Shown: in pieces, positions 1,675 through 29,270 of the stretch
Layout of the letters: each line of letters starts with the position of its first letter
Numbering within the stretch: position 1 is the first letter of the stretch
Origin: Desulfovibrionales bacterium
Lineage (GTDB): Bacteria; Desulfobacterota; QYQD01
DNA length: 59,588 bases
NCBI GenBank assembly: GCA_028715605.1
Contig: JAQURM010000006.1
Location: forward strand, 1 to 59,588
Reading direction: 5' to 3'
The notes under the pieces: generated by a model
What the model saw: the letters and a program-made list of their open reading frames with translations, nothing else
Told to the model about the DNA's origin: nothing
Databases searched by the model: none
Made by a program: the position numbers and the translations under genes

Positions 1675-1995
1675 TTATACGCAGCCGGTCGGCTTCGGAA
1701 GGCCAGCCATCTTACAGGCTCCCTTACCCGGTCCGGAGGGGAAAAGCTCATAGATCTTCTTAAGTGGATAGCCCGTTACCTTAGAAAATATCCTTACCAT
1801 TGGGGCAATGCCGTTTTTCTTGTAATAGTCCTGCAAGAAATTGACACACTTCCAATGTTCATCGCCTACCACAGGGATACCTTCTATGTCCTTTACATAA
1901 TCTACCCAGTTTTCATCCCATGCGCTGAGCCCCGCGGCCAAGAAACCGTCTTCATCTACCTCGTAGGTTTTTCCTTTGTGATCAATCGTTGCCAT
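1675..1995 (-). CDS. dsrC: DsrC-type sulfur carrier protein (TusE/DsrC family)
   Basis: Encodes 106 residues. The C-terminal arm CKMAGLPKPTGCV has both conserved cysteines, Cys105 (penultimate) and Cys94, eleven residues apart. This is the pattern of true DsrC and is absent from TusE, which has only the last one. In sulfate reducers DsrC takes sulfur from dissimilatory sulfite reductase as a trisulfide that the membrane DsrMKJOP complex reduces. The gene is alone here, with a strong AGGAGG ribosome site and a terminator, which matches the common finding that dsrC lies apart from dsrAB. A second paralogue is at 17264-17581. Confidence 0.92.
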   Translation of the reverse strand: MATIDHKGKTYEVDEDGFLAAGLSAWDENWVDYVKDIEGIPVVGDEHWKCVNFLQDYYKKNGIAPMVRIFSKVTGYPLKKIYELFPSGPGKGACKMAGLPKPTGCV

Positions 1996-9221: not shown

Positions 9222-9509
9222 TCATAATTTTTTATTAAGGGCATCTCGCAGCTTTCTACTGGCCTTGAAGGTAACTACAGATCGGGGTGATATCTCTACT
9301 GTTTCTCCGGTACGCATGTTCCGTCCCGGCCTTGCCCTTTTCGCCCGAACCTTCAAGATGCCAAAATTCGCAATCTTGACACTATCTCCCTTTAACAGCT
9401 CCTCTTTAAAGGCATCAAATATTGATGTAACCAGCTCAGTAGTCGCCTGTCGGGGGAAGCCGATCTTGTTATGAATATGCTCTACAATGTCTTTTTTGGT
9501 CAGTGTCAT
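9222..9509 (-). CDS. ihfA: integration host factor alpha subunit (HU/IHF family)
   Basis: Encodes 95 residues. It starts TLTKKDIVEHIHNKIGFPRQ and has the IHF-alpha DNA-arm segment RARPGRNMRTGETVEI with the intercalating proline, followed by SRKLRDALN. IHF bends DNA for recombination, replication and sigma-54 promoters. The ATG overlaps the end of pheT (9506-9509), so it is translationally coupled, the classical pheST-ihfA arrangement. Confidence 0.92.
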   Translation of the reverse strand: MTLTKKDIVEHIHNKIGFPRQATTELVTSIFDAFKEELLKGDSVKIANFGILKVRAKRARPGRNMRTGETVEISPRSVVTFKASRKLRDALNKKL

Positions 9510-11950
9510 TTTAGCCCTTCCTGCAACTCCGTTATTTTTTGTTCCCTTAATCTTCCATTAAACCTGGATAATATATCACTTACTATTTGTTGGTGGACAG
9601 CATTTACTTCTTCATCCTCCAGTGTCTTCTCTGAAGAACGGTAAATCACCCGCAAGGCCAGGCTCTTATATCCTCGCTCAATTTGCCTGCCCTGATAGAC
9701 ATCAAATATAAAAACATTTTCCATTATATTCCCACCCTGCTCATTAATCACGCGCAAAATCCGGCCGGCAGGAACATCTTCGGGAACGATAATAGCCATA
9801 TCCCGCATCACAGCAGGATAGCGGGGGAGCGGCTTAAAGACCTTTAGGCCTTTATAGGCTTCGACTAAATCGTCAAATGATAACTCAAATATAAATACCT
9901 TTTCTTTTACGTCAAAGCCTTCACAGACAGAGGGATCCATCTCACCCACAAAACCCAGCGTCTTTGGGCCAAGTACGATACGGGCAGACGCCTCTCTCCT
10001 GAGATAAGGGGCAGATTCCACCGCCTGGTCCAGCCTATAACCGGAGATGCCCAGGGCCTGAAAAACGGCCTCCATACCGCCTTTTATATCAAAAAAATCG
10101 ACTCCATCCCCGGGAAAATGCACCCCCTCCGGATAGCGCAGACCGGTACACATACCGGCTAAATAGGTCTTTTCTACTGGCTGCCGGCCTTCCCCCTGGT
10201 CAATAAAAATTTTGCCTATCTCAAAGAGGCGCAGGTTGCTATTCCACTTGTTAAGGTTACTGCATACGGTAGAAAGGAGATTGGGGATAAGAGAAGTCCT
10301 CAGCACCGACTGTTCTTCGGTCAACGGGTTTAAAAGGTTTACGTGTCTATTTCGCTCGTCTGTCCCGGAGATTTTCAAGAGCCTTGTCGCCCGCTCATCC
10401 ATAAAGCTGTAGTTAATCACCTCGTAAAATCCGAGGCCGTTGAGGACAGAATGGCAGGTATTGGCAACGGTATGACTCTTTATCCGGGCCGGGGTCGTCA
10501 ACGAAACAACGGGGAGTTTTACCGGTATTTTTTCGTAACCATTAAGGCGCGCCACTTCCTCTATGAAATCGACTTCCCGGCTGAGGTCACCACGGAAAGA
10601 CGGGGATGTCGCCAGAAGGGTGTCTTTTCCTGCCTCGCGTACTTTGATGCCGATGCTCTCCAGTAACCGGCGTATCTCGCTTTTTTTCAGGTCGCTCCCC
10701 AAAAGGCGGTTAACCTGACCTACACGTATGGGGATAGGTTTTCTTTCCTCCGGTCTGGAATAGACATCGATACGGCCTTTTAAAATTTTTTCCCCGCCCG
10801 CTTTTGCCATGAGAGAGACAGCGCGATCCAGAGCTGCCCCCACTCCATCCATATCTATGCCCCGTTCGAAGCGGTATGAAGATTCGGTGCTCAAATTTAG
10901 CCGGCGGCTGGTGCGGCGGACAGAAATAGGGTCAAAATAGGCGCTCTCAATAAAAACCGACCGGGTTTCCGGGGTTATTTCAGAATTTATACCTCCCATA
11001 ATTCCGGCCAGGGCGACGTTTTTCTCCCCATCCGCAATCATGAGCATATTTTCGGAAAGAGTTCTTACCACCCCATCCAGGGTGGTGAATGTCTCATCAT
11101 TTCGGGCTTGATCGACTATAATACGCCTTCCGGCCAGGCGTTCCAGATCAAAGGCATGTAAGGGCTGGCCATATTCCATGAGAACGTAATTGGTAACATC
11201 GACTATGTTATTGACCGGGCGGATACCTACCGCCAGGAGGCGTTTACGGAGCCAGAGAGGCGATCCGGCTACCGTCACACCCCTTATGATCCGGCCGGCA
11301 TAGCGGGGGCATAGATCAACGGCCCTAACCTCCACTGATACTGCCTGGTGGATGTCTTCGCCCTTTTCTGAAATATTTATTCTGGGATAACGCACCTTCT
11401 TATGTAAGATGGCCGCCGCCTCACGCGCAACTCCCAAAACGCTCAGACAATCAGCGCGGTTAGGGGTCAGCCCTATTTCCAGCACATAGTCTTCCAGCTC
11501 CAGGGCCCGGGCCAGGGGAAGCCCGGATTCCATGTCACCGGGTAAGATATAGACTCCGCTCTTATTCTCACCCAGACCAAGTTCGGCTGCCGAGCAGAGC
11601 ATGCCCTCAGAATACTCGCCCTTTATAGTGGTCCCGGAGATTCTTAATGGCCCGGGCAGGACGGCTCCCTCTAAAGCCAGCGGCGCCTTATCTCCGATGC
11701 GGATATTTTTCGCCCCGCAGACCACACGGTATGTATTTTTGCCGGACACAACCCGGCACAGAGAAAGGTCTTCAGCATGGGGATGCGGGAGAATATCTGT
11801 AATGTGGCTGACCACTACCTGACCCAGGCCTGCATCATAGCGCGTCAGGTTTTCCACCTCCAACCCGACCATGGTCAGGCGTTCGGCCATGTCTTCCACG
11901 GGGATGTCAATGTCCACAAATTCTTTAAGCCAGTTCAGCGTAACCCGCAT
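9506..11950 (-). CDS. pheT: phenylalanyl-tRNA synthetase beta subunit
   Basis: Encodes 814 residues, the bacterial PheT length. Domains in order are an N-terminal EMAP/tRNA-binding OB fold (about 40-150, VVSHITDILPHP), B3/B4 editing domains (about 210-390, with NIVDVTNYVLMEYGQPLHAFD), B5 (about 400-475), the synthetase-like core, and a C-terminal anticodon-binding FDX domain (about 720-810, PRYPAVMRDMAI). It forms an (alphabeta)2 enzyme with PheS, encoded 23 bases upstream. Confidence 0.95.
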   Translation of the reverse strand: MRVTLNWLKEFVDIDIPVEDMAERLTMVGLEVENLTRYDAGLGQVVVSHITDILPHPHAEDLSLCRVVSGKNTYRVVCGAKNIRIGDKAPLALEGAVLPGPLRISGTTIKGEYSEGMLCSAAELGLGENKSGVYILPGDMESGLPLARALELEDYVLEIGLTPNRADCLSVLGVAREAAAILHKKVRYPRINISEKGEDIHQAVSVEVRAVDLCPRYAGRIIRGVTVAGSPLWLRKRLLAVGIRPVNNIVDVTNYVLMEYGQPLHAFDLERLAGRRIIVDQARNDETFTTLDGVVRTLSENMLMIADGEKNVALAGIMGGINSEITPETRSVFIESAYFDPISVRRTSRRLNLSTESSYRFERGIDMDGVGAALDRAVSLMAKAGGEKILKGRIDVYSRPEERKPIPIRVGQVNRLLGSDLKKSEIRRLLESIGIKVREAGKDTLLATSPSFRGDLSREVDFIEEVARLNGYEKIPVKLPVVSLTTPARIKSHTVANTCHSVLNGLGFYEVINYSFMDERATRLLKISGTDERNRHVNLLNPLTEEQSVLRTSLIPNLLSTVCSNLNKWNSNLRLFEIGKIFIDQGEGRQPVEKTYLAGMCTGLRYPEGVHFPGDGVDFFDIKGGMEAVFQALGISGYRLDQAVESAPYLRREASARIVLGPKTLGFVGEMDPSVCEGFDVKEKVFIFELSFDDLVEAYKGLKVFKPLPRYPAVMRDMAIIVPEDVPAGRILRVINEQGGNIMENVFIFDVYQGRQIERGYKSLALRVIYRSSEKTLEDEEVNAVHQQIVSDILSRFNGRLREQKITELQEGLK

Positions 11951-11973
11951 AGTATTACAGCCTGATTTTAAGT

Positions 11974-12978
11974 CTAAAATTGATTGAGAAAACGGAGATT
12001 ATTCTCGTAGAAAAGACGGATATCGTCAATGCCGTACTTCAGCATGGCTATGCGCTCTATGCCCATGCCAAAGGCCAAGCCGGTAATTTCCTCGGGGTCG
12101 TAACCGACCATACGAAAGACTTCGGGGTCAACCATGCCGGCGCCCATGACCTCTAACCAGCCGGTTTGAGAACAAACCCGGCAACCTGAACCACGACAGA
12201 TCACACAAAGGATATCTATTTCCGCGCTGGGTTCGGTAAAAGGAAAAAAGCTGGGACGAAAGCGGAGGGAGGTCTGTTCATCGAAAATCTGATGGATAAA
12301 TATGGTCAATATCCCTTTAAGGTCAGCAAATGAGACACCTTTATCGACCATAAACCCTTCCACCTGATGAAACATAGGGGTATGGGTGATATCCGAGTCA
12401 CAGCGATAAACCTTGCCCGGCGCAATAATTCGCACCGGCGGCCGTTGCCTTTCCATGGTGCGCACCTGTATCGGAGAGGTATGAGTGCGCAAAAGGACGT
12501 TTTCAGAGATATAAAAAGTATCCTGCATGTCCCGCGCCGGGTGATCGCGCGGGATGTTCAACGCCTCAAAATTATAATAATCAAGTTCCACATCCGGCCC
12601 TTCGGCCATAGCAAAACCCAGTCTTTCAAATATATCGCATACCTCGCCGGTGATCTGGGTTATAGGATGGAGCTTGCCCGGGGGTATAAACCGGCCGGGT
12701 AACGTAATGTCTGTCTTTGGACCTGCCTGCCCCTCAGAGGAAACCCTTGTCTGCCAGGTATTAAGGGCGGTCTCTATCTCCTTTTTAACGGCATTGGCCA
12801 ACTGCCCGATACGCGGCCTGAGTTCTGCCGACAGGCCGCCCATCTGCTTTAACAGCTCAGGCAGGATTCCTTTACGGCCCAGGTACTTAATGCGAAGCGC
12901 TTCCCATTCCTCCCGGCTCTTGACCTCCGGGATGGCCTTAAGCGCCTCGTCTCTTATTTTTTGCAGCCTTTCTTCCAT
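11974..12978 (-). CDS. pheS: phenylalanyl-tRNA synthetase alpha subunit
   Basis: Encodes 334 residues from the chosen ATG at 12976-12978 (MEERLQKIRDEALKAI), which fits the family; an in-frame ATG at 13053 would run back through rplT and a palindromic repeat. Class II synthetase motifs are visible: FHQVEGFMVDKG, the ATP/Phe-binding region RFRPSFFPFTEPSAEID, and GMGIERIAMLKYGIDDIR at the end. It charges tRNA-Phe together with PheT. Confidence 0.94.
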   Translation of the reverse strand: MEERLQKIRDEALKAIPEVKSREEWEALRIKYLGRKGILPELLKQMGGLSAELRPRIGQLANAVKKEIETALNTWQTRVSSEGQAGPKTDITLPGRFIPPGKLHPITQITGEVCDIFERLGFAMAEGPDVELDYYNFEALNIPRDHPARDMQDTFYISENVLLRTHTSPIQVRTMERQRPPVRIIAPGKVYRCDSDITHTPMFHQVEGFMVDKGVSFADLKGILTIFIHQIFDEQTSLRFRPSFFPFTEPSAEIDILCVICRGSGCRVCSQTGWLEVMGAGMVDPEVFRMVGYDPEEITGLAFGMGIERIAMLKYGIDDIRLFYENNLRFLNQF

Positions 12979-12989
12979 CAGATAAGGAT

Positions 12990-13023
12990 CAATCTCAGAT
13001 TTCAAATTTGAAATCTGAGATTG
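12990..13023. repeat. perfect 34-bp palindrome between rplT and pheS
   Basis: Two 17-base arms, caatctcagatttcaaa and tttgaaatctgagattg, meet with no spacer. It begins one base after the rplT stop and ends just before the pheS start region. It has no T-run on the transcribed strand, so it is not a classic terminator. It resembles the ATTTCAAATCTGA-type mini-repeats common between genes in this lineage. It could form a stable mRNA stem limiting rplT-to-pheS coupling. Confidence 0.85.
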
Positions 13024-13024
13024 A

Positions 13025-13369
13025 TTATCGCGCCGTCCTGGCAATTTTTGCAAAGCAGGCCGGATCGCTTATAGCCAGATCAGAAAGGATCTTACGATCC
13101 AATTCTATCCCCGTCTTCTTTAATCCACCCATCAGCCTGCTGTAAGAGAGACCGTTTAGCCTGGCCGCCGCATTGATTCGTGCAATCCAGAGGGCCCTGA
13201 ATTCCCGCTTCCGCACCCTGCGATCACGATAAGCATAGGTCATAGCGCGCTCTACCGCCTCTTTGGCCGTGCGGAAGATTTTGCTCCTTCGTCCCCAATA
13301 TCCTTTGGCCAAAGCCAGTACCTTATTTCTCCGTCTCCTGGCCTTAAAACCCCTTTTCGCTCTTGGCAT
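13025..13369 (-). CDS. rplT: 50S ribosomal protein L20
   Basis: Encodes 114 residues, very basic. It starts [25 protein letters not shown]-type (shown in part here) and has the conserved [21 protein letters not shown]20 binds 23S rRNA early in assembly and in many bacteria represses its own operon. It is separated from rpmI by an unusual insertion of about 320 bases containing a composite repeat. Confidence 0.96.
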
Positions 13370-13410
13370 AACAGTACCCTTTCTTTAAACTCGTTTTGTT
13401 AAATAAATAG

Positions 13411-13590
13411 TTTCCATCCGGAAACCCAAAGATTCCGGATGCAGCAGTCAGCATGAAGCCGGTTCACCGTTCACTGTTGACCGTTTACCGAAAGAAAATG
13501 TCGGACAACGGTTGACGGTTAACGGATAACAAACATGCTGATCGCTGAAAGCGTGAAGCCGGAAACCGAAGTTTCCGGGTGAACACTTAA
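13411..13590. repeat. composite repeat (about 180 bp) between rpmI and rplT
   Basis: It opens with a ccatccggaa...ttccggatg hairpin. There follow gaagccggttcaccgttcac, the quasi-palindrome tgaccgtttaccgaaagaaaatgtcggacaacggttga, then catgctgatcgctgaaagcg, and a closing ggaaaccgaagtttcc hairpin. A copy of nearly the same sequence and order is at 39945-40130. It occupies most of the 322-base space between rpmI and rplT, where no gene is seen. Confidence 0.85.
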
Positions 13591-13691
13591 CCACACAAAT
13601 AAAGTGCGGCATAGCCGCAGCTTCAAAGCTTATTGTCCGTTGCCTCCAGGATACCACTCTTCAGACCAGACTTCCAGAACCCATCCAGATA

Positions 13692-13889
13692 TCAAAGATA
13701 GGGTATTATCTGTCGGATATTTTGGGCATTGGACTCATCAAGCACGCTCGAACCGCGCAGGCCTCTCTTTCGTTTGCGTGTCTTCGAGGTCAATATATGG
13801 CTGCCATAGGCCTTAAACCCTAAGATTTTGCCTGTACCGGTTACCTTAAAGCGCTTGGCAGCACCCCGATTGGTTTTAATCTTTGGCAT
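13692..13889 (-). CDS. rpmI: 50S ribosomal protein L35
   Basis: Encodes 65 residues. It starts [20 protein letters not shown] and contains the [17 protein letters not shown] core, both diagnostic for bL35. It lies between infC (38-base gap) and rplT, the standard infC-rpmI-rplT order, and is probably under IF3/L20 control. Confidence 0.95.
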
Positions 13890-13927
13890 CTCTCCCCCTA
13901 ATCTAATAATCTAAAATTTCAAATGCA

Positions 13928-14437
13928 CTACGTCTTCGGGGCAACTATCATCACCATGTCCCGGCCTTCCATCTTTGGTTCGTATTCTATTTTCCCGACG
14001 TCCTCTATCTCGGCGCGAATACGATTTAGTATTTTTACGGCCTGGTCGGAAAAGGCGATCTCACGCCCCCGGAAACGAATGGATACCTTAACCTTGTCTT
14101 TATCTTCCAAAAATCGGCGAATATGACGCAACTTAAACTGGTAATCATGCTCATCGGTCTTGGGCCGGAACTTGACCTCTTTTACCTGTATAACTACCTG
14201 CTTTTTCTTGGCCAACTGGATTTTTTTGCTCTGCTCGTACTTGAATTTGCCGTAGTCCATAACCCGGCAGACCGGCGGTTGAGCTGTAGGAGCTATTTCC
14301 ACCAGATCAAGCCCTTCTGCCTCCGCCAATTTCAAGGCTTCGTCAAGGGGCTTAATCCCCAGTTGCGTCCCGTCTGCGCCGATTAACCTTACTTCCTTAG
14401 CGCGTATCTGCCAATTAATTCTAACCTTTTTCTCTAT
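13928..14437 (-). CDS. infC: translation initiation factor IF-3, probable AUA start
   Basis: About 169 residues. The IF3 N-terminal domain ([24 protein letters not shown]), the linker with [14 protein letters not shown], and the C-terminal IRFRGREI core are clear. The strong site AAGGGGAGG (14453-14446, minus strand) overlaps the only nearby GTG (14446-14444), which therefore cannot serve as start. Eight bases after it comes ATA (14437-14435) in frame, an apt start. The next in-frame ATG is far inside the protein. IF3 discriminates against AUU/AUA/AUC starts, and infC of E. coli uses AUU for autoregulation; the same logic is inferred here. Confidence 0.93.
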
Positions 14438-14490
14438 ACTATCCACCTCCCCTTATGATGCAAATAAAAGTTCTCGGAAACATATCTATG

Positions 14491-16275
14491 CTACTGATAA
14501 TTTCTGCATTTATCCTGAACCATGGCCACAAACTGATTTACCGGCATGGCCGAAAGATTTTCCCCGTTCCTGAGGCGAACCGTCACACTGTGCGAGGCGA
14601 CCTCCTTGTCCCCGATAACAAGCATATATGGAATCTTCTGCATCTGCGCTTCCCTGATCTTTAGGCTCAGTTTTTCGTTGCGGAAATCTCCTTCCGCCCT
14701 GAGGCCTGCATCCATAAGCTCCGCCAGGACGCCCCGGGCATAATCAATCTGTCTGTCCGTAACCGTCATGATTACAGCCTGTACCGGCGCTAGCCAGGCG
14801 GGAAAAGCGCCGCCGTAGTGCTCTATCAAAACGCCGATAAACCGCTCCAGCGCCCCCAATATTACCCTGTGGAGCATCACCGGCCTATGCCTTTCACCAT
14901 CTGCCCCTACGTAAACCAGGTCAAACCGTTCCGGCAGGGTAAAGTCGCACTGGATAGTGGCGCACTGCCAGCGCCGATCCAGGGCATCCTTAAGCTTTAT
15001 GTCGATTTTGGGTCCATAAAACGCGCCTTCGCCCTCATGGACGGCAAACGGAATATCCTTGTCACGCAGGGCGCCCGTGAGGGCTGCGGTGGCCCGCTCC
15101 CAGTCTTCATCGCTACCGATGGACTTTTCCGGCCTGGTGCTGATTTCTACCTCATAATCAAAACCGAAGATGCCCATGACATAGGTGACGAAATCGATTA
15201 CGCCTTTTATCTCATCATTCAACTGCTCCGGCATACAAATAATATGCGCGTCATCCTGGGTAAACTGGCGAACCCTTAAAAGGCCGTGCAAGACGCCCGA
15301 TTTCTCATGCCGGTGCACCGTGCCCAGTTCAAAGAATCGCAGCGGCAGGTCCCGGTAGCTCCTTACCCTGGATTTGTAAATGAGCATGTGGGCCAGGCAG
15401 TTCATGGGCTTGATACCGTACTGCTGACCGTCTATCTCCGTAAAGTACATATTCTCGCGATAGTTGTCAAAATGACCGGAACGCTTCCAGAGATCAAGTT
15501 TCAATATCTGCGGCCCCATCACCAACTGGTATCCGCGCTTCAGATGTTCCCGCTTTTCAAAATCCTCAATAATATGTCTCAGCATGGCCCCGCGCGGATG
15601 ATAAATTATCAGCCCCGCCCCTGCCTCATCGCTTACGCTGAACAGGTCCAGCTCCTTGCCCAGGCGGCGGTGGTCGCGCCTCTTGGCCTCTTCAAGCTTC
15701 TCAAGATAGTCCTTGAGGACCTTACGATCAAAGAAGGCCGTTCCGTAGATGCGTTGCAGCATCTTGTTGCGCTCATCTCCCCGCCAATAAGCGCCGGCCA
15801 CGCCGGTCAACTTAAAGGCCTGGACCAATCCGGTAGAGGCAATATGCGGTCCACGGCAGAGGTCAATAAAGCCCCCCTGCCGGTAAATAGAAACGATTTC
15901 TTCGGGTATATCCCGAAGAAGCTCGACCTTATATGGTTCATCCAGCCGCGTAAACAATTCAATAGCGGCTTCCTTAACCAACTCTTCCCGCTGGAATTGC
16001 CTGTTTTCAGCGATAATCTCCCGCATTCGCCCCTCAATGCGCTCCAGATCCGCGGGCGTGAAGGTCCCTTCATAATCAAAATCATAATAGAACCCGTGTT
16101 CTATAGCCGGGCCGATGGCCATCTTAACCGACGGGAATAAGTCTTTTACCGCCTCGGCCATGATATGCGCGGTGCTGTGCCTAAAGATAGCCAGTTCCTC
16201 TCCCGTGGTCGTATCTCGAGGAATAGCCATCTCTCTGCCATCGGAGCTGGTTATGGAAATAAGATTTTTTCCCAT
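14491..16275 (-). CDS. thrS: threonyl-tRNA synthetase lacking the TGS domain
   Basis: Encodes 594 residues against about 640 in E. coli. It begins directly with the editing (N2) domain: [17 protein letters not shown] is at about residues 32-48, with the Zn/His editing motif continuing in the SAD region. Class II core motifs are present ([21 protein letters not shown]) and the C-terminal anticodon domain starts near [10 protein letters not shown]. The roughly 60-residue TGS domain is missing, and an in-frame TAA 22 bases upstream of the ATG rules out a missed longer start. It heads the infC-rpmI-rplT-pheST-ihfA block. Confidence 0.95.
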
Positions 16276-17263: not shown

Positions 17264-17581
17264 ATGCCGAGCGTATCTTATAAAGACAAGCGATTCGAGG
17301 TTAACATAGAAGGCTATTTGAAGACTTTCGATAGCTGGACTGCGGAATTCTCCCAGGCCATCGCCAAACAAGAAGGGATAGAAGATTTAACCGATGAACA
17401 CTGGCTAATAATTGAATACGTGCGTAACTACTATGCCAAACGTGGCATTGCTCCTATGATTTTAAAGTTGCAACGAGATCTCAAAATTTCCATTTGGCGA
17501 ATACATGAACTTTTTCCTACCACGTCTGAGAGGGTTATATGCAAGATTGCCGGCCTGCCCAAGCCAACCGGTTGTATCTGA
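17264..17581 (+). CDS. second DsrC-family sulfur carrier (paralogue)
   Basis: Encodes 105 residues. It retains both cysteines of the C-terminal arm, Cys93 and Cys104 in CKIAGLPKPTGCI, eleven apart as in DsrC. The body is clearly diverged from the copy at 1675-1995; shared features are DEHW, YYAKRGIAPM and IHELFP. The ATG follows GGAGAGGG. The gene converges on the radical SAM-FKBP gene (80-base gap), which lies beside a YcaO gene. That context suggests sulfur delivery to a specific modification reaction rather than to sulfite reduction, but this is inference. Confidence 0.88.
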   Translation: MPSVSYKDKRFEVNIEGYLKTFDSWTAEFSQAIAKQEGIEDLTDEHWLIIEYVRNYYAKRGIAPMILKLQRDLKISIWRIHELFPTTSERVICKIAGLPKPTGCI

Positions 17582-17661
17582 GCATTAATCGCTGGACTGC
17601 CCGGCCCCAAAAAATGTCAAACCGTCCTGCCTGTGCGGTGCCTGACTGTGAGCGTTCTCGC

Positions 17662-20037
17662 TCAGGCAGGCACGCAGACAGGGCTGGCCATTTTAATTCT
17701 CTGCTCTTCCCTTAAGAGAGAATACCTGATCTGGCCGTCCAGAAATTTTTCTTTTAATTCTTCCACTACTTCCATGGCTTCGCCTTTCTTCTGGTAGATA
17801 TCCAGAAGGCAATAAAGGACTCGCAGGTCTCGCTCATTATATATTTTTTTTAAGATCTCCAGCGCCCGATCATAGTCTTTAAGACTCAAATAACAACGAA
17901 TCTGCTGAATCAGGCCCTCGTGGTCCTGCCGCCCGGTCTTATTTATAAGCTCCAGGGCAAATTCAAATAGTCCGCCATCCATAAGGACGCGGATAACTTT
18001 CGGCCCCAGGCCGTCCATCGTAAAAATTTTCTCCGCGACCGTCATGGCCTCGGTAAACCTTCCCAGACAGAGATATTTACTAATAAGGTCCAGACCCCGC
18101 TGCGGGCTTTGCATCAATTCTTCGGGGTTAAGCGATCGTAACCAGATGTAGTATAAGGCCTCCTGGGTCTTTCTGAGAGAATCGAGATCATCCGGTTGGT
18201 ACGTGTTGCAGATGCCGAGAGAAGGGATGTCTTCAATCCCCTGGACAAACACAGGTTCCATTACTTTATGCACCCTTATCATGAAGGTGGCATCTTGTCC
18301 GGCCAGCTCCCGGTCAGGATATTCATGAGGAAATCTGACCTGAAATCGCCTCTCTTCTCCGGCCTTAAGTCCCGCCATCTTGCTCTCGAATTCAGGCAGA
18401 AAGCGGCCTTCACCGATCACGAGCGGCCAGAACCGCCCGCTTGTACTGGGAATGGGTCTTTCTCCGAGGTACCCGGCAATATCTAAAATTACCTTCATCC
18501 CGGATCCGGCTGCAGAGCTTGAGTCCCGGTAAAAAGGCACGCGCCTGATCCATTCCTTAAGCCACGACTGGCCGGCGGCCCTGGCCGTGCTCAGATACCG
18601 GTAGAGTAACTCAAACTCCTCAACCTCACATAATAACTTTGTAAGATAGAGATAGAATTCCGGCTCCTCGTCCAGATAATGGGCTTGGTGAACAAGATAC
18701 GAGAGGAGAGGAAAAATATCGGTCTTTGCCTCGACCTTCTCCTGGAAGAAGGCGTTGTTAATAAACCAGAGGGCCTTCAGCCGCTTTATCTCCTTCGACG
18801 TAAGGTTCTCAGTTTCAAAATCATCTCCGATAGATAGGTATCGGGGCTTGTATTGCGGCTGGGGTATGATCCCGAATTTCCTATAATCCCTCTGGATCTC
18901 CGTGCCGAAATAGACCTGAAGCTGCTGCGAACAGGAATTTCCCTCGATGCGAACCCCGTGGTTCTTCACAAAACGCACGGTTTCATAGGCATCGGCAAAG
19001 GTCTCACCCGGCAGCCCGTAAAGGGTAAATAACTCCACGTTGACACCAAAGGACTGGGCCAATTTGATGGCCTTAGACAGTCTGTCCAGATCCAATTTTT
19101 TTCTGATGGTATCGAGAACCCTGGGGCTGCCTGATTCCATGCCATAGGCAATGGTAGCGGCGCCGGCCCGTTTTAGCTTCATAAGAAGAGAGGCATCGAC
19201 CAGGTCGTAACGCGTTTGACACCAGAACCGGATATCAAGGCCCTGTTCTATGATCTTGTCTAAAAGGCATTCCAGCCGCTCGCGGGAGAAACTGAAGTTC
19301 GGATCGGCAAACCAGAACTGTCTAATGCCCCTTTTTACACAATGCCTGATTTCTTCCAGCACCCGCTCGATGGAGTGAATTTTTACCTTATGATGGAACG
19401 CCCTGGGCGTATAGCAGAATACGCAGGGATAGACACAGCCTCTGGAGGTAAGTAGAATGGCCGTATCCTTGTGTGATAGATCCAGGACGTTTGTCAGATA
19501 CGGTGACGGATAAGTATCCAGATCATCCCCGGTTTCTTCGGCCATGGGATTATCATACAGGCGATTTTCTACCTTATAAGATATTCCACGTACAAAGGAC
19601 AGAGGCAGGCCCTTCTGCAGAGAGCAGGCGAGATCCCGCGCCACTATTTCTCCGTCACCCCGGGAAATGACATCCATATGGCGAAGGTCAAGGAGGGCCT
19701 CAGTAGGCATAAACGTCGCCTGCGGCCCGCCGATAACAATGGGTATCCGGGGGTCCAGTTCCTTTATGAATTTAGCCAGAAGGCGGATATTTTCCATGTT
19801 TTCCATGTAAGCAGAAAAAGCTACGTACAAAGGACGCCGGTCAAGGATGAACTCCCTGATTTTTAACAGCGACAACGGCCTGTCTTTGAGATCATCCCAC
19901 AGGACGATTTCAAAACCATTGTCCCTGAGAAAGGCGCCGATATATCCTAGAGAGATCGGGATGGTATCTGATGAAGAGACCGGAGAGGTTCGATTACTGT
20001 TGATGAGTAAGACAGGGGGATCGCTTGTTGGATGCAT
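17662..20037 (-). CDS. cobalamin-type radical SAM protein fused to FKBP-like and TPR-like domains
   Basis: Encodes 791 residues. Residues about 5-150 are a B12-binding-like Rossmann domain (VIGGPQATFM, SRGDGE). Residues about 190-400 are a radical SAM barrel with the [4Fe-4S] cysteines Cys201, Cys205 and Cys208 in GCVYPCVFCYTPRAFH, followed by YGMESGSPRVLDTIRKK and LYGLPGETF. Residues about 514-597 match FKBP/trigger-factor PPIase domains (FLPEFESKMAGLKAGEERRF, FPHEYPDRELAG, FMIRVHKVMEPV). Residues about 640-780 are helical, TPR-like. A PPIase fused to a B12-radical SAM enzyme suggests a polypeptide substrate. The YcaO gene lies 264 bases upstream on the same strand. The reaction is unknown; methylation of an unreactive carbon is typical of this class. 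Confidence 0.85.
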   Translation of the reverse strand: MHPTSDPPVLLINSNRTSPVSSSDTIPISLGYIGAFLRDNGFEIVLWDDLKDRPLSLLKIREFILDRRPLYVAFSAYMENMENIRLLAKFIKELDPRIPIVIGGPQATFMPTEALLDLRHMDVISRGDGEIVARDLACSLQKGLPLSFVRGISYKVENRLYDNPMAEETGDDLDTYPSPYLTNVLDLSHKDTAILLTSRGCVYPCVFCYTPRAFHHKVKIHSIERVLEEIRHCVKRGIRQFWFADPNFSFSRERLECLLDKIIEQGLDIRFWCQTRYDLVDASLLMKLKRAGAATIAYGMESGSPRVLDTIRKKLDLDRLSKAIKLAQSFGVNVELFTLYGLPGETFADAYETVRFVKNHGVRIEGNSCSQQLQVYFGTEIQRDYRKFGIIPQPQYKPRYLSIGDDFETENLTSKEIKRLKALWFINNAFFQEKVEAKTDIFPLLSYLVHQAHYLDEEPEFYLYLTKLLCEVEEFELLYRYLSTARAAGQSWLKEWIRRVPFYRDSSSAAGSGMKVILDIAGYLGERPIPSTSGRFWPLVIGEGRFLPEFESKMAGLKAGEERRFQVRFPHEYPDRELAGQDATFMIRVHKVMEPVFVQGIEDIPSLGICNTYQPDDLDSLRKTQEALYYIWLRSLNPEELMQSPQRGLDLISKYLCLGRFTEAMTVAEKIFTMDGLGPKVIRVLMDGGLFEFALELINKTGRQDHEGLIQQIRCYLSLKDYDRALEILKKIYNERDLRVLYCLLDIYQKKGEAMEVVEELKEKFLDGQIRYSLLREEQRIKMASPVCVPA

Positions 20038-20049
20038 TCATTGTTTCCT

Positions 20050-20145
20050 TATGTTGACGGCTTCGTAAAAAAGCCTTTTCACCGCTGAGTACGCAGAGCC
20101 CGCAGAGAAAAATTTTTGCCACCAAGGCACCAAGACACAAAAGAA
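20050..20145. repeat. intergenic repeat fragments between the radical SAM and YcaO genes
   Basis: A short arm of the GCGGCGT-family element (tgacggcttcgtaaaaaa) is followed by cgctgagtacgcagagcccg and caccaaggcaccaagacaca. The latter resembles the GCAAAGCCGCCAAGGACGC element at 58017-58050. The rest of the 264-base gap shows no small gene that I could support as a precursor peptide. Confidence 0.5.
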
Positions 20146-20301
20146 TAATCTTAGTCTTAGTGGCTGAATAGTTACAAATTCCTTTAATATGTTATCTCGG
20201 CGTCCTGCGGTAAAATTTTACTTTTTACGGGTTCATCAACTTTGAGTTTTTTCATTGGTCATTGCCTTCATCTATGAGCTACGAGCCATGTAAGCCTATC
20301 A

Positions 20302-22038
20302 CTAAGACAATGCCTGCCTGCTTAGCTTCTCGATGTTTTCACGGGCAAAATCTATAGAGGGGTCGATATCCAGGGCAAACTGATAGTATCGAATGGCCTC
20401 GGCTATATGGCCCATTTCCCGCAGGTTGGAGCCGATGTTGGCATAATCTATGGCCGAAGACGGGTCCAGATCTATGGCCTTTTCAAAGCAGGCTATGGAT
20501 TGCACATGATCTTTGAGCTTAAAATGACAAAAGCCCATCAGGTTATGTATTTCCTTGAGTTCCGCATTACACTCCCGTGCCTTTTCAAGCTCCGCCAGGG
20601 CCTGCCTTATATCCCCCAACTCCTTGTAGCACACCCCCCGCTGGCAATAAAGACTGGCCCTCTCCTTGCCCGTCGTATCAAGGGCTAATGCGCGTTCATA
20701 GCAGGCCAGGGCCTCATCGTAGCGGCCTTCCCGCTCATAGGTGTAGCCCAGGAAGAAATGGACCTCGTAATGGTCGGGATAGATCATCTTCATCCGCTCA
20801 AGCTCATGGACAGCCCTTTGGCTGTCGGGAAACTGTGAGACCAGTTTGGCGGCGTGCAGGCAGAAACTGTTGTCTCTGGTGCGTTCGCGGAAATGGGCCC
20901 CCGGCACGATCATATATACGGCCGGAATACGGAGGACAGGATGGGTAATATCCACGGCATAAACGGTAAGCCCCTTTTCAGCTAGGGCACGGGCACACTG
21001 TTCCAGTTCCACCCGCTGATTGGAATGCGAGACATCGGGCATATCTCCGATGCAAGCGTTATTCCCGGCTTCCGTCACATAACGGGCGTCTTCCAGTCCG
21101 GAAAATTTGGGCAGGCCGCTTTCAGCATATCTGCCCTCGGTGTCAAAGTCCCCGGCAAGCTGAGCTATTTCCGTCAAGGCCCGGATAAGGGCCTTTTCCG
21201 GGTGTGTAGCCGTCCCCGCGGTATAGACGATTTCACTCTTCTCCGGGAAAGTGGCGGGGTCCATAGCCAGAGCCGCCACCGTGGGTATCCCCATCTTAAG
21301 GGTAATATCTTTTACGTAAAGGTTGATCCTTTTTGAGTCATATTTCGTGATCAATTCTCTCGCCATGGGATCTTTTACCGAGGAAAGATCAATGGCCGGG
21401 GTAGGAAGATTTTCGTTTGTGACGACCGAGGATACGTGCCTTTCCACCACCTCACATAATCCCTGGAGGGCGGCCTCGGTCAGGGTATTTCCGGCTGAGG
21501 AGCCATTATACTCATTTAACATATAAAACCACTGAAAGGGGAGCCAGACCTCTTTATTATGCGTGAGATCATGGGCCTTGGTCCAGAAAAAGGGGAGGGT
21601 GGACCAGAGACCCCTGGCTTTTTCCAATTCATGGGCATTACCCGGGTCATCATGCACGGACTGCATAAGCGCCTCAGGTGGCACCACGTCTCCTTGAAGC
21701 GCCCCGGCCTCGGAACAGACAAAAGAGCCATTCATAAAACTAAAAAGAGAGTACCGTTCCATGAGTTCCATAAGGGCGCTCGCTTCTGCCTGTTCAGGCG
21801 TCCCTCCCTTACCCATCTGTTTGATGGTGCCGACGATCTCTCTGGCCTCTGCGCCACAGATGCTCATATAAACCGGGATTCCCAGCCTGCCCTTGTCTAT
21901 TCGGACCACGTCCCTTAGAATCTCGCCCTTGACCTGTTTTAAACGGTCCCTGACCCTGGCCACGGTCTCTCTTGGCGAAACGGCCTTATCCTGATCAATC
22001 GTATAGGTCTTAATTGAGTCGGCAAAAACAAGTGACAT
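20302..22038 (-). CDS. YcaO-domain protein with C-terminal TPR repeats
   Basis: Encodes 578 residues, near the length of E. coli YcaO. The ATP-binding signatures are intact: Ser87-x3-Glu91-x2-Glu94-Arg95 (SALMELMER), Gln192-x3-Glu196-x2-Glu199-Arg200 (QGLCEVVER), and His279...Arg286...Glu290...Gln293. The last ~155 residues are three to four TPR units. No proline-rich C-terminal PxPxP end of azoline cyclodehydratases is present, so thioamidation or another backbone activation is more likely than azoline formation. The ATG follows GGGAGA. Partners in the neighbourhood are a B12-radical SAM/FKBP protein and a DsrC paralogue. Confidence 0.9.
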   Translation of the reverse strand: MSLVFADSIKTYTIDQDKAVSPRETVARVRDRLKQVKGEILRDVVRIDKGRLGIPVYMSICGAEAREIVGTIKQMGKGGTPEQAEASALMELMERYSLFSFMNGSFVCSEAGALQGDVVPPEALMQSVHDDPGNAHELEKARGLWSTLPFFWTKAHDLTHNKEVWLPFQWFYMLNEYNGSSAGNTLTEAALQGLCEVVERHVSSVVTNENLPTPAIDLSSVKDPMARELITKYDSKRINLYVKDITLKMGIPTVAALAMDPATFPEKSEIVYTAGTATHPEKALIRALTEIAQLAGDFDTEGRYAESGLPKFSGLEDARYVTEAGNNACIGDMPDVSHSNQRVELEQCARALAEKGLTVYAVDITHPVLRIPAVYMIVPGAHFRERTRDNSFCLHAAKLVSQFPDSQRAVHELERMKMIYPDHYEVHFFLGYTYEREGRYDEALACYERALALDTTGKERASLYCQRGVCYKELGDIRQALAELEKARECNAELKEIHNLMGFCHFKLKDHVQSIACFEKAIDLDPSSAIDYANIGSNLREMGHIAEAIRYYQFALDIDPSIDFARENIEKLSRQALS

Positions 22039-28064: not shown

Positions 28065-29270
28065 GTGTAGTGTCTCATAAACGACTGGAGTTATTTCTTT
28101 TTGATTTACCGGAACGTGGTAATGTAGAACCCGGCTTAATTTTTTCTAAAGTTTGTCGGCAGCGAGAGAGTTTTTCCACGATTGATTCTATTGTTGCCAT
28201 CCAAACGAAGGGCCTGGGGTTTGTATTCCAAGCGGCCAAATATTCTTCAATCGCAGCAATAAGATCAGCGACACTGACAAAAGTGCCACGGCGTATGCGT
28301 TTTCCCGTCAATTCTCCAAACCAGCGTTCTACTAAATTCAACCAGCTTGAGCTGGTCGGAATGAAGTGAGCCACAAAACGCGGATGGCGTTTTAACCAAG
28401 CCTGCACTTTGGGATGTTTGTGAGTTCCATAGTTGTCTATTACCAAGTGTAGTTTTATTTTCACAGGAAACTCTGCATCCAGGCGTTTCAAAAATTTGAG
28501 AAACTCTTGATGACGATGCCGGGCATAACACTGCCCAATCACCTTGCCTTGTGCTATTTCCAGCGCTGCAAAGAGAGTCGTAGTGCCGTTACGCTTGTAG
28601 TCATGTGTCATAGTTCCACATCGGCCTTTTTTCAAAGGTAGCCCCGGCTGTGTGCGATCCAACGCCTGAATCTGACTTTTCTCGTCCACACAAAGGACTA
28701 CTGCTTTTTCCGGGGGATTGAGATAGAGACCTACCACATCGGTGAGTTTCTCTAAAAACATGGGATCACGTGATAACTTGAATCCCTTAACCCGGTGCGG
28801 CTGTATTCCATGACTCTGCCAAATCCGGTTGACCGTTGCCCTGCTTATACCTTGCTTTTCAGCCATCGTACGGCAGCTCCAATGAGTAGCTCCCGTAGGC
28901 CGACTTTGCAGAGTAGCCTTGATAATCTCTTCTATCTTGTCTGCCGTGTACTGGGGTTTACGCCCCCGGCCTCCAGCTACTTCCCAAAGACAGTCCGGCC
29001 CCTGACTACAAAAGCGCTGCCGCCATAAAGCCACCGTTTTAAAATTGATCCGCATACTCGCAGCGATATCCTTGTCCTGTTGCCCTTGCGCTGCCGCCAA
29101 TATTATCCGGCAGCGTTGCGCAACCTGTTGCGGCGTGCGATGGGCGCTCACCCAATGCTCCAATTCTTGCCGATCTGTTTTACTCAATGTAACTTGCATG
29201 GCTTGTCGTGACATGCGGATAGTCTATCATACATGGCAATATAAATCCACTTATTTATAAGACAGTACAC
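28065..29270 (-). mobile_element. IS630-family insertion sequence, intact
   Basis: 1206 bases bounded by imperfect inverted repeats of about 18 bp (gtgtagtgtctcataaa and its counterpart tttataagacagtacac) with TA on each side (28063-28064, 29271-29272), the usual IS630 target duplication. It holds one uninterrupted transposase gene. It lies between prmA and the restriction-modification locus. Confidence 0.9.
28075..29214 (-). CDS. IS630-family DDE transposase
   Basis: Encodes 379 residues. The N-terminal helix-turn-helix domains (QRCRIILAAAQGQQDKDIAA, then a Homeodomain-like RTMAEKQGISRATVNRIW) are followed by an IS630/Tc1-type DDE core: CVDEKSQIQALDR (first Asp), HLVIDNYGTHKH (second Asp) and SSWLNLVERWFGELT (Glu). 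There is no frameshift, so it should be active. The stop lies just inside the left terminal repeat. Confidence 0.94.
   Translation of the reverse strand: MSRQAMQVTLSKTDRQELEHWVSAHRTPQQVAQRCRIILAAAQGQQDKDIAASMRINFKTVALWRQRFCSQGPDCLWEVAGGRGRKPQYTADKIEEIIKATLQSRPTGATHWSCRTMAEKQGISRATVNRIWQSHGIQPHRVKGFKLSRDPMFLEKLTDVVGLYLNPPEKAVVLCVDEKSQIQALDRTQPGLPLKKGRCGTMTHDYKRNGTTTLFAALEIAQGKVIGQCYARHRHQEFLKFLKRLDAEFPVKIKLHLVIDNYGTHKHPKVQAWLKRHPRFVAHFIPTSSSWLNLVERWFGELTGKRIRRGTFVSVADLIAAIEEYLAAWNTNPRPFVWMATIESIVEKLSRCRQTLEKIKPGSTLPRSGKSKRNNSSRL

Follow-up and report, generated by a model that had tools for sequence, protein, structure and literature searches.

YcaO–TPR and radical SAM–FKBP proteins linked to the Dsr system, and a candidate glycine in DsrC

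Dissimilatory sulfite reduction, a key step in the global sulfur cycle, has DsrC as its central carrier of sulfur and electrons. Among cobalamin-type radical SAM enzymes, MgmA methylates a glutamine of MCR, and AprD4 is not a methylase. The YcaO enzymes of the TIGR03266 family thioamidate a glycine of McrA, a folded respiratory protein, which is the kind of target proposed here as well. The E. coli YcaO acts on a cellular target instead of a RiPP precursor; it thioamidates uL16 and possesses a TPR-like C-terminal domain of its own (PMC13063428). In the sulfate reducer D. vulgaris, the YcaO-like and TPR-containing protein DVU2210 is known solely from the molybdate resistance of a strain in which it was deleted together with sat; sulfate and sulfite respiration are retained in its absence (PMC7774982). 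Both DVU2210 and DsrC were recurrently mutated in syntrophic evolution lines (PMC8319347).

The locus and the proteins it encodes

The window analyzed here is a contig stretch of 59,588 nucleotides from a Desulfovibrionales bacterium (GenBank assembly GCA_028715605.1, contig JAQURM010000006.1). The three genes of the preliminary description are present in it and are listed below together with the canonical dsrC of the same genome.

17264–17581, plus strand: DsrC paralogue (DsrC2), both arm cysteines kept, TTSERVIC replacing SGPGKGAC; on a long branch and conserved in the genus
17662–20037, minus strand: B12-type radical SAM protein fused to an FKBP domain of the trigger-factor type, with helical repeats at the C-terminus (rSAM–FKBP)
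20302–22038, minus strand: YcaO–TPR, ATP-site motifs intact; predicted to modify a backbone amide (thioamide formation)
1675–1995, minus strand: canonical DsrC, proposed substrate; candidate Gly90 (Gly89 in D. vulgaris) at 1726–1728

Both minus strand genes had been described as converging on DsrC2; the rSAM–FKBP gene does so, with 80 bp between the gene ends, and the YcaO gene does not. The window genome possesses two DsrC genes, a single YcaO was found in it, and its dsrA is on another contig. Its class is represented by one genus in the genome collection. A transposase-like gene, judged by eye, lies downstream of the region (28075–29214).

The rSAM–FKBP, YcaO–TPR, and DsrC2 genes occur together in four of the five genus genomes (G000, G001, G003, G004), and the arrangement, kept in these four, is not a chance one. 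That the three genes are unrelated neighbors, accidentally arranged in this genus, is very improbable. Such a reading would suit the genus-specific adjacency of the rSAM and YcaO genes, the spacer of 194–344 bp between them, which does not make a tight operon, and the fifth genome, G002, in which a different YcaO lies beside rSAM–FKBP and DsrC2; against it, the DsrC2–rSAM pair is kept genus-wide, a YcaO lies beside that pair in G002 too, and both the linkage of YcaO to dsrC and a set of shared accessory genes recur in other genomes. G002 also has a YcaO–TPR elsewhere. The different YcaO beside the pair belongs to a second type with shorter TPRs, which is also found ~0.5 kb from the only dsrC of G101 (L073 3189–4739, L269 13731–14900), a second YcaO–DsrC linkage.

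We searched the YcaO–rSAM spacer for a precursor peptide and found no short open reading frame with a conserved start in the genus. One short frame alone recurs (in the window, KKLKVDEPVKSKILPQDAEITY), and it was rejected; it begins with ATG in just one genome and with ACG in others, and is disrupted in G003. The earlier suggestion of a cellular protein as target, in place of a RiPP precursor, is supported as a reading, and it is likely that these enzymes act on a protein. Among the papers searched there was no earlier report of the combination, in line with the preliminary description, and none naming both YcaO and DsrC; for YcaO with sulfite reductase, the only match concerns alkane-oxidising archaea.

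The YcaO domain was borne out by a PF02624 match of 260 bits (cut-off 25.7), accompanied by TPRs, and its ATP/Mg-binding motifs are conserved across 69 aligned sequences. The closest curated family is TIGR03266, for which YcaO–TPR scores 148.7 bits (cut-off 365) and is therefore a relative and not a member; the closest solved structure is the methanogen McrA-glycine thioamidation YcaO (MJ1094, PDB 6pe3). The protein differs from that enzyme in its fused TPRs, its bacterial origin, its link to dsr, and its position beside dsrC, in a setting that has no Mcr. Scores for the azoline-forming TOMM YcaO family (TIGR03604, 121 bits, cut-off 219) and the E. coli-type YcaO (NF040716, 59.7 bits, cut-off 700) fall below their cut-offs, the latter far below; the E. 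coli enzyme also differs in its uL16 target and in having no link to dsr. DVU2210 is probably of the same family as YcaO–TPR, to which it is likened via its description and the common ATP-motif region (SAGNT...ER).

The radical SAM gene matches the Pfam models Radical_SAM (8e-22), B12-binding (2e-17), and FKBP_C (1e-7), with weak repeat matches. Both the B12-binding and radical SAM models score over their cut-offs, and the CxxxCxxC cysteines are invariant in 24 sequences. In a confident AlphaFold2 model built from the 24 sequences (pLDDT 91), residues 1–440 match cobalamin-type radical SAM enzymes, with Z scores of 30.6 for CysS, 27.2 for AprD4, and 25.8 for MgmA; OxsB possesses the same fold (Z 25.8 to 30.6 for the four). 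The protein described here differs from these enzymes in that the fold is fused to a trigger-factor-type FKBP domain and helical repeats. We infer methyl transfer, and no more than infer it, because AprD4, a non-methylase, is as close as the methylases. The region first called FKBP-like does have an FKBP fold (FKBP_C 32.7 bits, cut-off 21.1), of a more specific type than described: residues ~490–624 match the trigger factor PPIase (Z 15.1, 27% identity over 116 residues), and helical repeats follow. Here, the PPIase is part of an enzyme, and the ribosome-binding domain of trigger factor was not recognised.

Outside the genus, the radical SAM protein occurs in two forms, one with an FKBP fusion and one short, the latter usually followed by a TPR protein. 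The N-terminal part of this TPR partner carries four conserved cysteines and may be a metal-cluster (SPASM-like) site. The model of the partner (L115 5433–6836 and homologues) is confident, and a fold search with it matched repeats only. The C-terminal TPRs of the partner and of YcaO–TPR have an extended TPR motif in common which, as a sequence resemblance, suggests a common docking partner.

DsrC2 is recognised by the Pfam DsrC model (103.5 bits) and by TIGR03342 (89.9 bits, cut-off 53.5), and has both C-terminal arm cysteines, as had been described. The SGP(G/A)KGAC motif that precedes the first arm cysteine is present in the product of the 1675–1995 gene, the canonical DsrC, and is replaced in DsrC2. 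On the best explanation, DsrC2 is a specialised form of DsrC that does not serve as substrate at the candidate glycine; with both cysteines, but without that glycine, it may be a carrier or regulator.

Association with the dsr genes

Among 297 genomes of one phylum, YcaO–TPR is encoded in 106, and 103 of these are dsrA positive, over the cut-off or nearly so; 40 genomes possess dsrA without YcaO–TPR and 151 possess neither, all counts ignoring phylogeny. Two of the three YcaO–TPR genomes without dsrA are 62 and 76% complete, and G303 is a YcaO–TPR-bearing chromosome with no dsrA match. The radical SAM family (E below 1e-80) is present in 28 of the 297 genomes, 25 of them dsrA positive. A strict confinement of this family to dsr genomes was rejected, as MAGs of Omnitrophota, Myxococcota, and Geobacter with no dsrA match also encode members. 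Where dsrA is present but both enzymes are missing, many genomes have no DsrD or a divergent one. That the modification enzymes are tied to the Dsr system is the claim we hold with the greatest confidence.

Clustering of all YcaO–TPR neighbors identified dsrC as the commonest recurrent one. In 22 genomes from 10 families it is encoded on the strand of YcaO–TPR, 0.1–1.1 kb away and in both orders (100–422 bp in 21 genomes, 1.1 kb in one). The triad is not a general unit: the rSAM and YcaO–TPR genes adjoin in the genus of the window alone, and no YcaO–TPR was seen beside the rSAM homologues outside it. The preliminary description had joined all three genes in one scheme, which homologues of the two enzymes regularly found apart and without a DsrC would contradict. 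For the YcaO–rSAM pair this is the situation outside the genus, where the homologues lie apart, and the scheme does not hold for that pair; the YcaO–DsrC link, recurring across these families, stands.

Directly upstream of YcaO–TPR in six loci (L103, L105, L107, L227, L239, L267) lies a gene for LarE. LarE represents a family of sulfur-insertion enzymes, or sacrificial sulfur transferases. We count this neighbor in favor of thioamidation by YcaO–TPR. A sulfur-handling protein occupies in these loci the neighbor place that dsrC has in others, and the preliminary description had DsrC donate sulfur, by which the persulfide or trisulfide of DsrC or DsrC2 would feed the thioamidation of some cellular protein by YcaO–TPR. 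The YcaO–dsrC linkage and a DsrC2 that keeps both cysteines without the glycine would agree with this, and it is not known from where the E. coli YcaO obtains its sulfur in vivo (PMC13063428). However, sulfide is already at hand in sulfate reducers, and a donor role leaves both the shared TPR motif and the association of the DsrC glycine with YcaO–TPR, described below, unexplained. We consider a donor role quite unlikely, and the evidence rather favors canonical DsrC in the part of substrate.

In the genus of the window and in G162, YcaO–TPR is found near infC-rpmI-rplT-pheST (window 9506–16275; L102). This may be old synteny, and it is the one hint of a ribosomal target. YcaO–TPR could, like the E. 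coli enzyme with its TPR-like domain and uL16 target (PMC13063428), modify a ribosomal or other housekeeping protein, with the tie to dsr reflecting sulfide supply or common ancestry. This is improbable, given that YcaO–TPR scores very weakly with the E. coli-type model (59.7 bits against 700), that dsrA-negative genomes of the phylum do not encode it, and that its linkage to dsrC spans 10 families.

Although apart outside the genus, the rSAM and YcaO–TPR genes have accessory genes in common. These encode a CxxCxxCC protein, a 116-residue protein, and a small TPR protein, in combinations that differ among loci; they accompany YcaO–TPR (L099, L101, L216, L217), rSAM–FKBP (L076, L114, L118), and dsrABD-dsrN-dsrC (L196–L209), and the window genome’s own dsr cluster (L210) includes CxxCxxCC and TPR genes. 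The 116-residue family has no Pfam or NCBIfam match and is found in 46 of the 297 genomes, its gene adjoining dsrAB, YcaO–TPR, or rSAM–FKBP (L196–L209, L099, L101, L216, L217, L114, L118). In G023, a short radical SAM gene and its TPR partner are located one gene upstream of dsrAB.

Glycine and alanine in the DsrC motif

In the loci read, canonical DsrC encoded beside YcaO–TPR reads SGPGKGACKMAG, and the DsrC of genomes with the radical SAM enzyme only reads SGPAKGAC. We searched the 297 genomes for the motif pattern, compared the matches with the positions of DsrC, and read back many of the sequences; the glycine (SGP-G-KGAC) is present in 102 of the 104 genomes that have both YcaO–TPR and DsrC; DsrC was not read in the remaining two (G114, G142), for which the matches are weak and maybe partial. 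Among the 49 DsrC-bearing genomes without YcaO–TPR, eight have the glycine and most have alanine (Fisher’s p 1e-26, ignoring phylogeny). A corresponding tie between the radical SAM enzyme and the glycine was rejected, as no positive association was found (nine of 110 glycine genomes, 15 of 43 others).

The DsrC tree comprises one large glycine clade plus alanine groups, and the distribution of the two residues mostly follows a single deep split. Nested in the glycine clade, G041 and G136 possess alanine, have cysteine replacing serine at position 70 (D. vulgaris numbering), and are without YcaO–TPR, while their relatives G076, G108, and G162 kept both the glycine and YcaO–TPR. On a short alignment, G041 and G136 represent one independent joint change. 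Several further DsrC columns also separate the groups, and the glycine is singled out because of this nested case and a D. vulgaris peptide, not from the statistics alone. Position 70 itself is serine, threonine, or alanine in YcaO–TPR genomes and mostly cysteine in alanine-type DsrC; the cysteine is perhaps a sulfur-for-sulfur replacement near Gly89.

The D. vulgaris peptide is the DsrC tryptic peptide LKEVYELFPSGPGK, for which trimethylation and oxidation were reported in three pull-downs (PMC3125180). It ends at the candidate Gly-Lys and has no methionine, tryptophan, or cysteine inside. The authors stated that the MS1 accuracy was too low to tell trimethylation from acetylation (PMC3125180); the mass difference between an added oxygen and a thioamide (+15.995 against +15.977), 0.018 Da or 11 ppm, is half of that gap. 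Ordinary oxidation, or a component of a different +58 shift, could also account for the published +16, which counts against the thioamide reading.

The same observations bear on whether YcaO–TPR might modify DsrA, DsrB, or AprAB near the active site, with the DsrC glycine a co-inherited marker of the dsr lineage. This target would yield the same co-occurrence with dsr and has a precedent in McrA, modified by its YcaO near the active site; accessory genes adjoin dsrAB, the G023 radical SAM gene and TPR partner lie close to it, and the glycine mostly tracks one deep split. Yet the direct neighbor of YcaO–TPR is dsrC and not dsrAB, the nested glycine-to-alanine change goes with the absence of YcaO–TPR, and the published peptide derives from DsrC, so that we regard this target as unlikely, if the strongest of the alternatives.

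Proposed reactions and their significance

Taken together, YcaO–TPR is best read as a protein modifier linked to Dsr, its probable reaction being the thioamidation of canonical DsrC. The genomic associations described above are observed; the enzymatic steps, the target, its site, and the role of DsrC2 we infer. YcaO–TPR would dock via its TPRs on DsrC, a DsrC complex, or another component of sulfite reduction, and would spend ATP to activate one backbone amide, the glycine carbonyl. Exchange of oxygen for sulfur would then generate a thioamide four residues before the first redox cysteine, the sulfur coming from sulfide, from DsrC-bound sulfur, or from a LarE-type step. The rSAM–FKBP protein is best read as another modifier linked to Dsr. 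Its PPIase, which resembles that of trigger factor, and its repeats would keep a flexible segment with proline in place while a radical reaction, probably methyl transfer, proceeds in the same Dsr system.

As a whole, this explanation, in which Dsr-linked modifiers operate and YcaO–TPR most likely thioamidates the DsrC glycine, is about evenly balanced in our judgment, and the case for DsrC as the YcaO–TPR substrate is equally poised. Placing the thioamide at the SGP-G-KGAC glycine (Gly89 in D. vulgaris, Gly90 in the window genome) is more tentative. Several findings speak against the explanation: i) the eight glycine genomes without YcaO–TPR and the adjacent DsrC2 without the glycine, ii) G303 without dsrA, respiration by D. 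vulgaris lacking DVU2210, and radical SAM homologues in dsr-negative genomes, and iii) the single deep DsrC split that mostly accounts for glycine and alanine, with other columns also separating the groups.

The thioamide reading is testable on existing proteomic data. If true, a thioamide beside the redox cysteine would change the understanding of DsrC trisulfide chemistry, DsrC produced in E. coli would probably be without it, and DVU2210, so far associated with molybdate resistance, would gain a function. DsrC would join MCR and uL16 as the third cellular protein to carry a thioamide. In its broadest form, a reading we hold as doubtful though by no means negligible, most sulfate reducers of the phylum would carry a DsrC with a YcaO-made thioglycine, plus a dedicated modifier set, YcaO–TPR or a B12-type radical SAM enzyme with FKBP or TPR parts, that docks on and tunes the sulfite-reduction machinery. 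The pattern known from MCR, in which a YcaO and a B12-dependent radical SAM enzyme act on a respiratory enzyme, would thereby extend to bacterial sulfite respiration.
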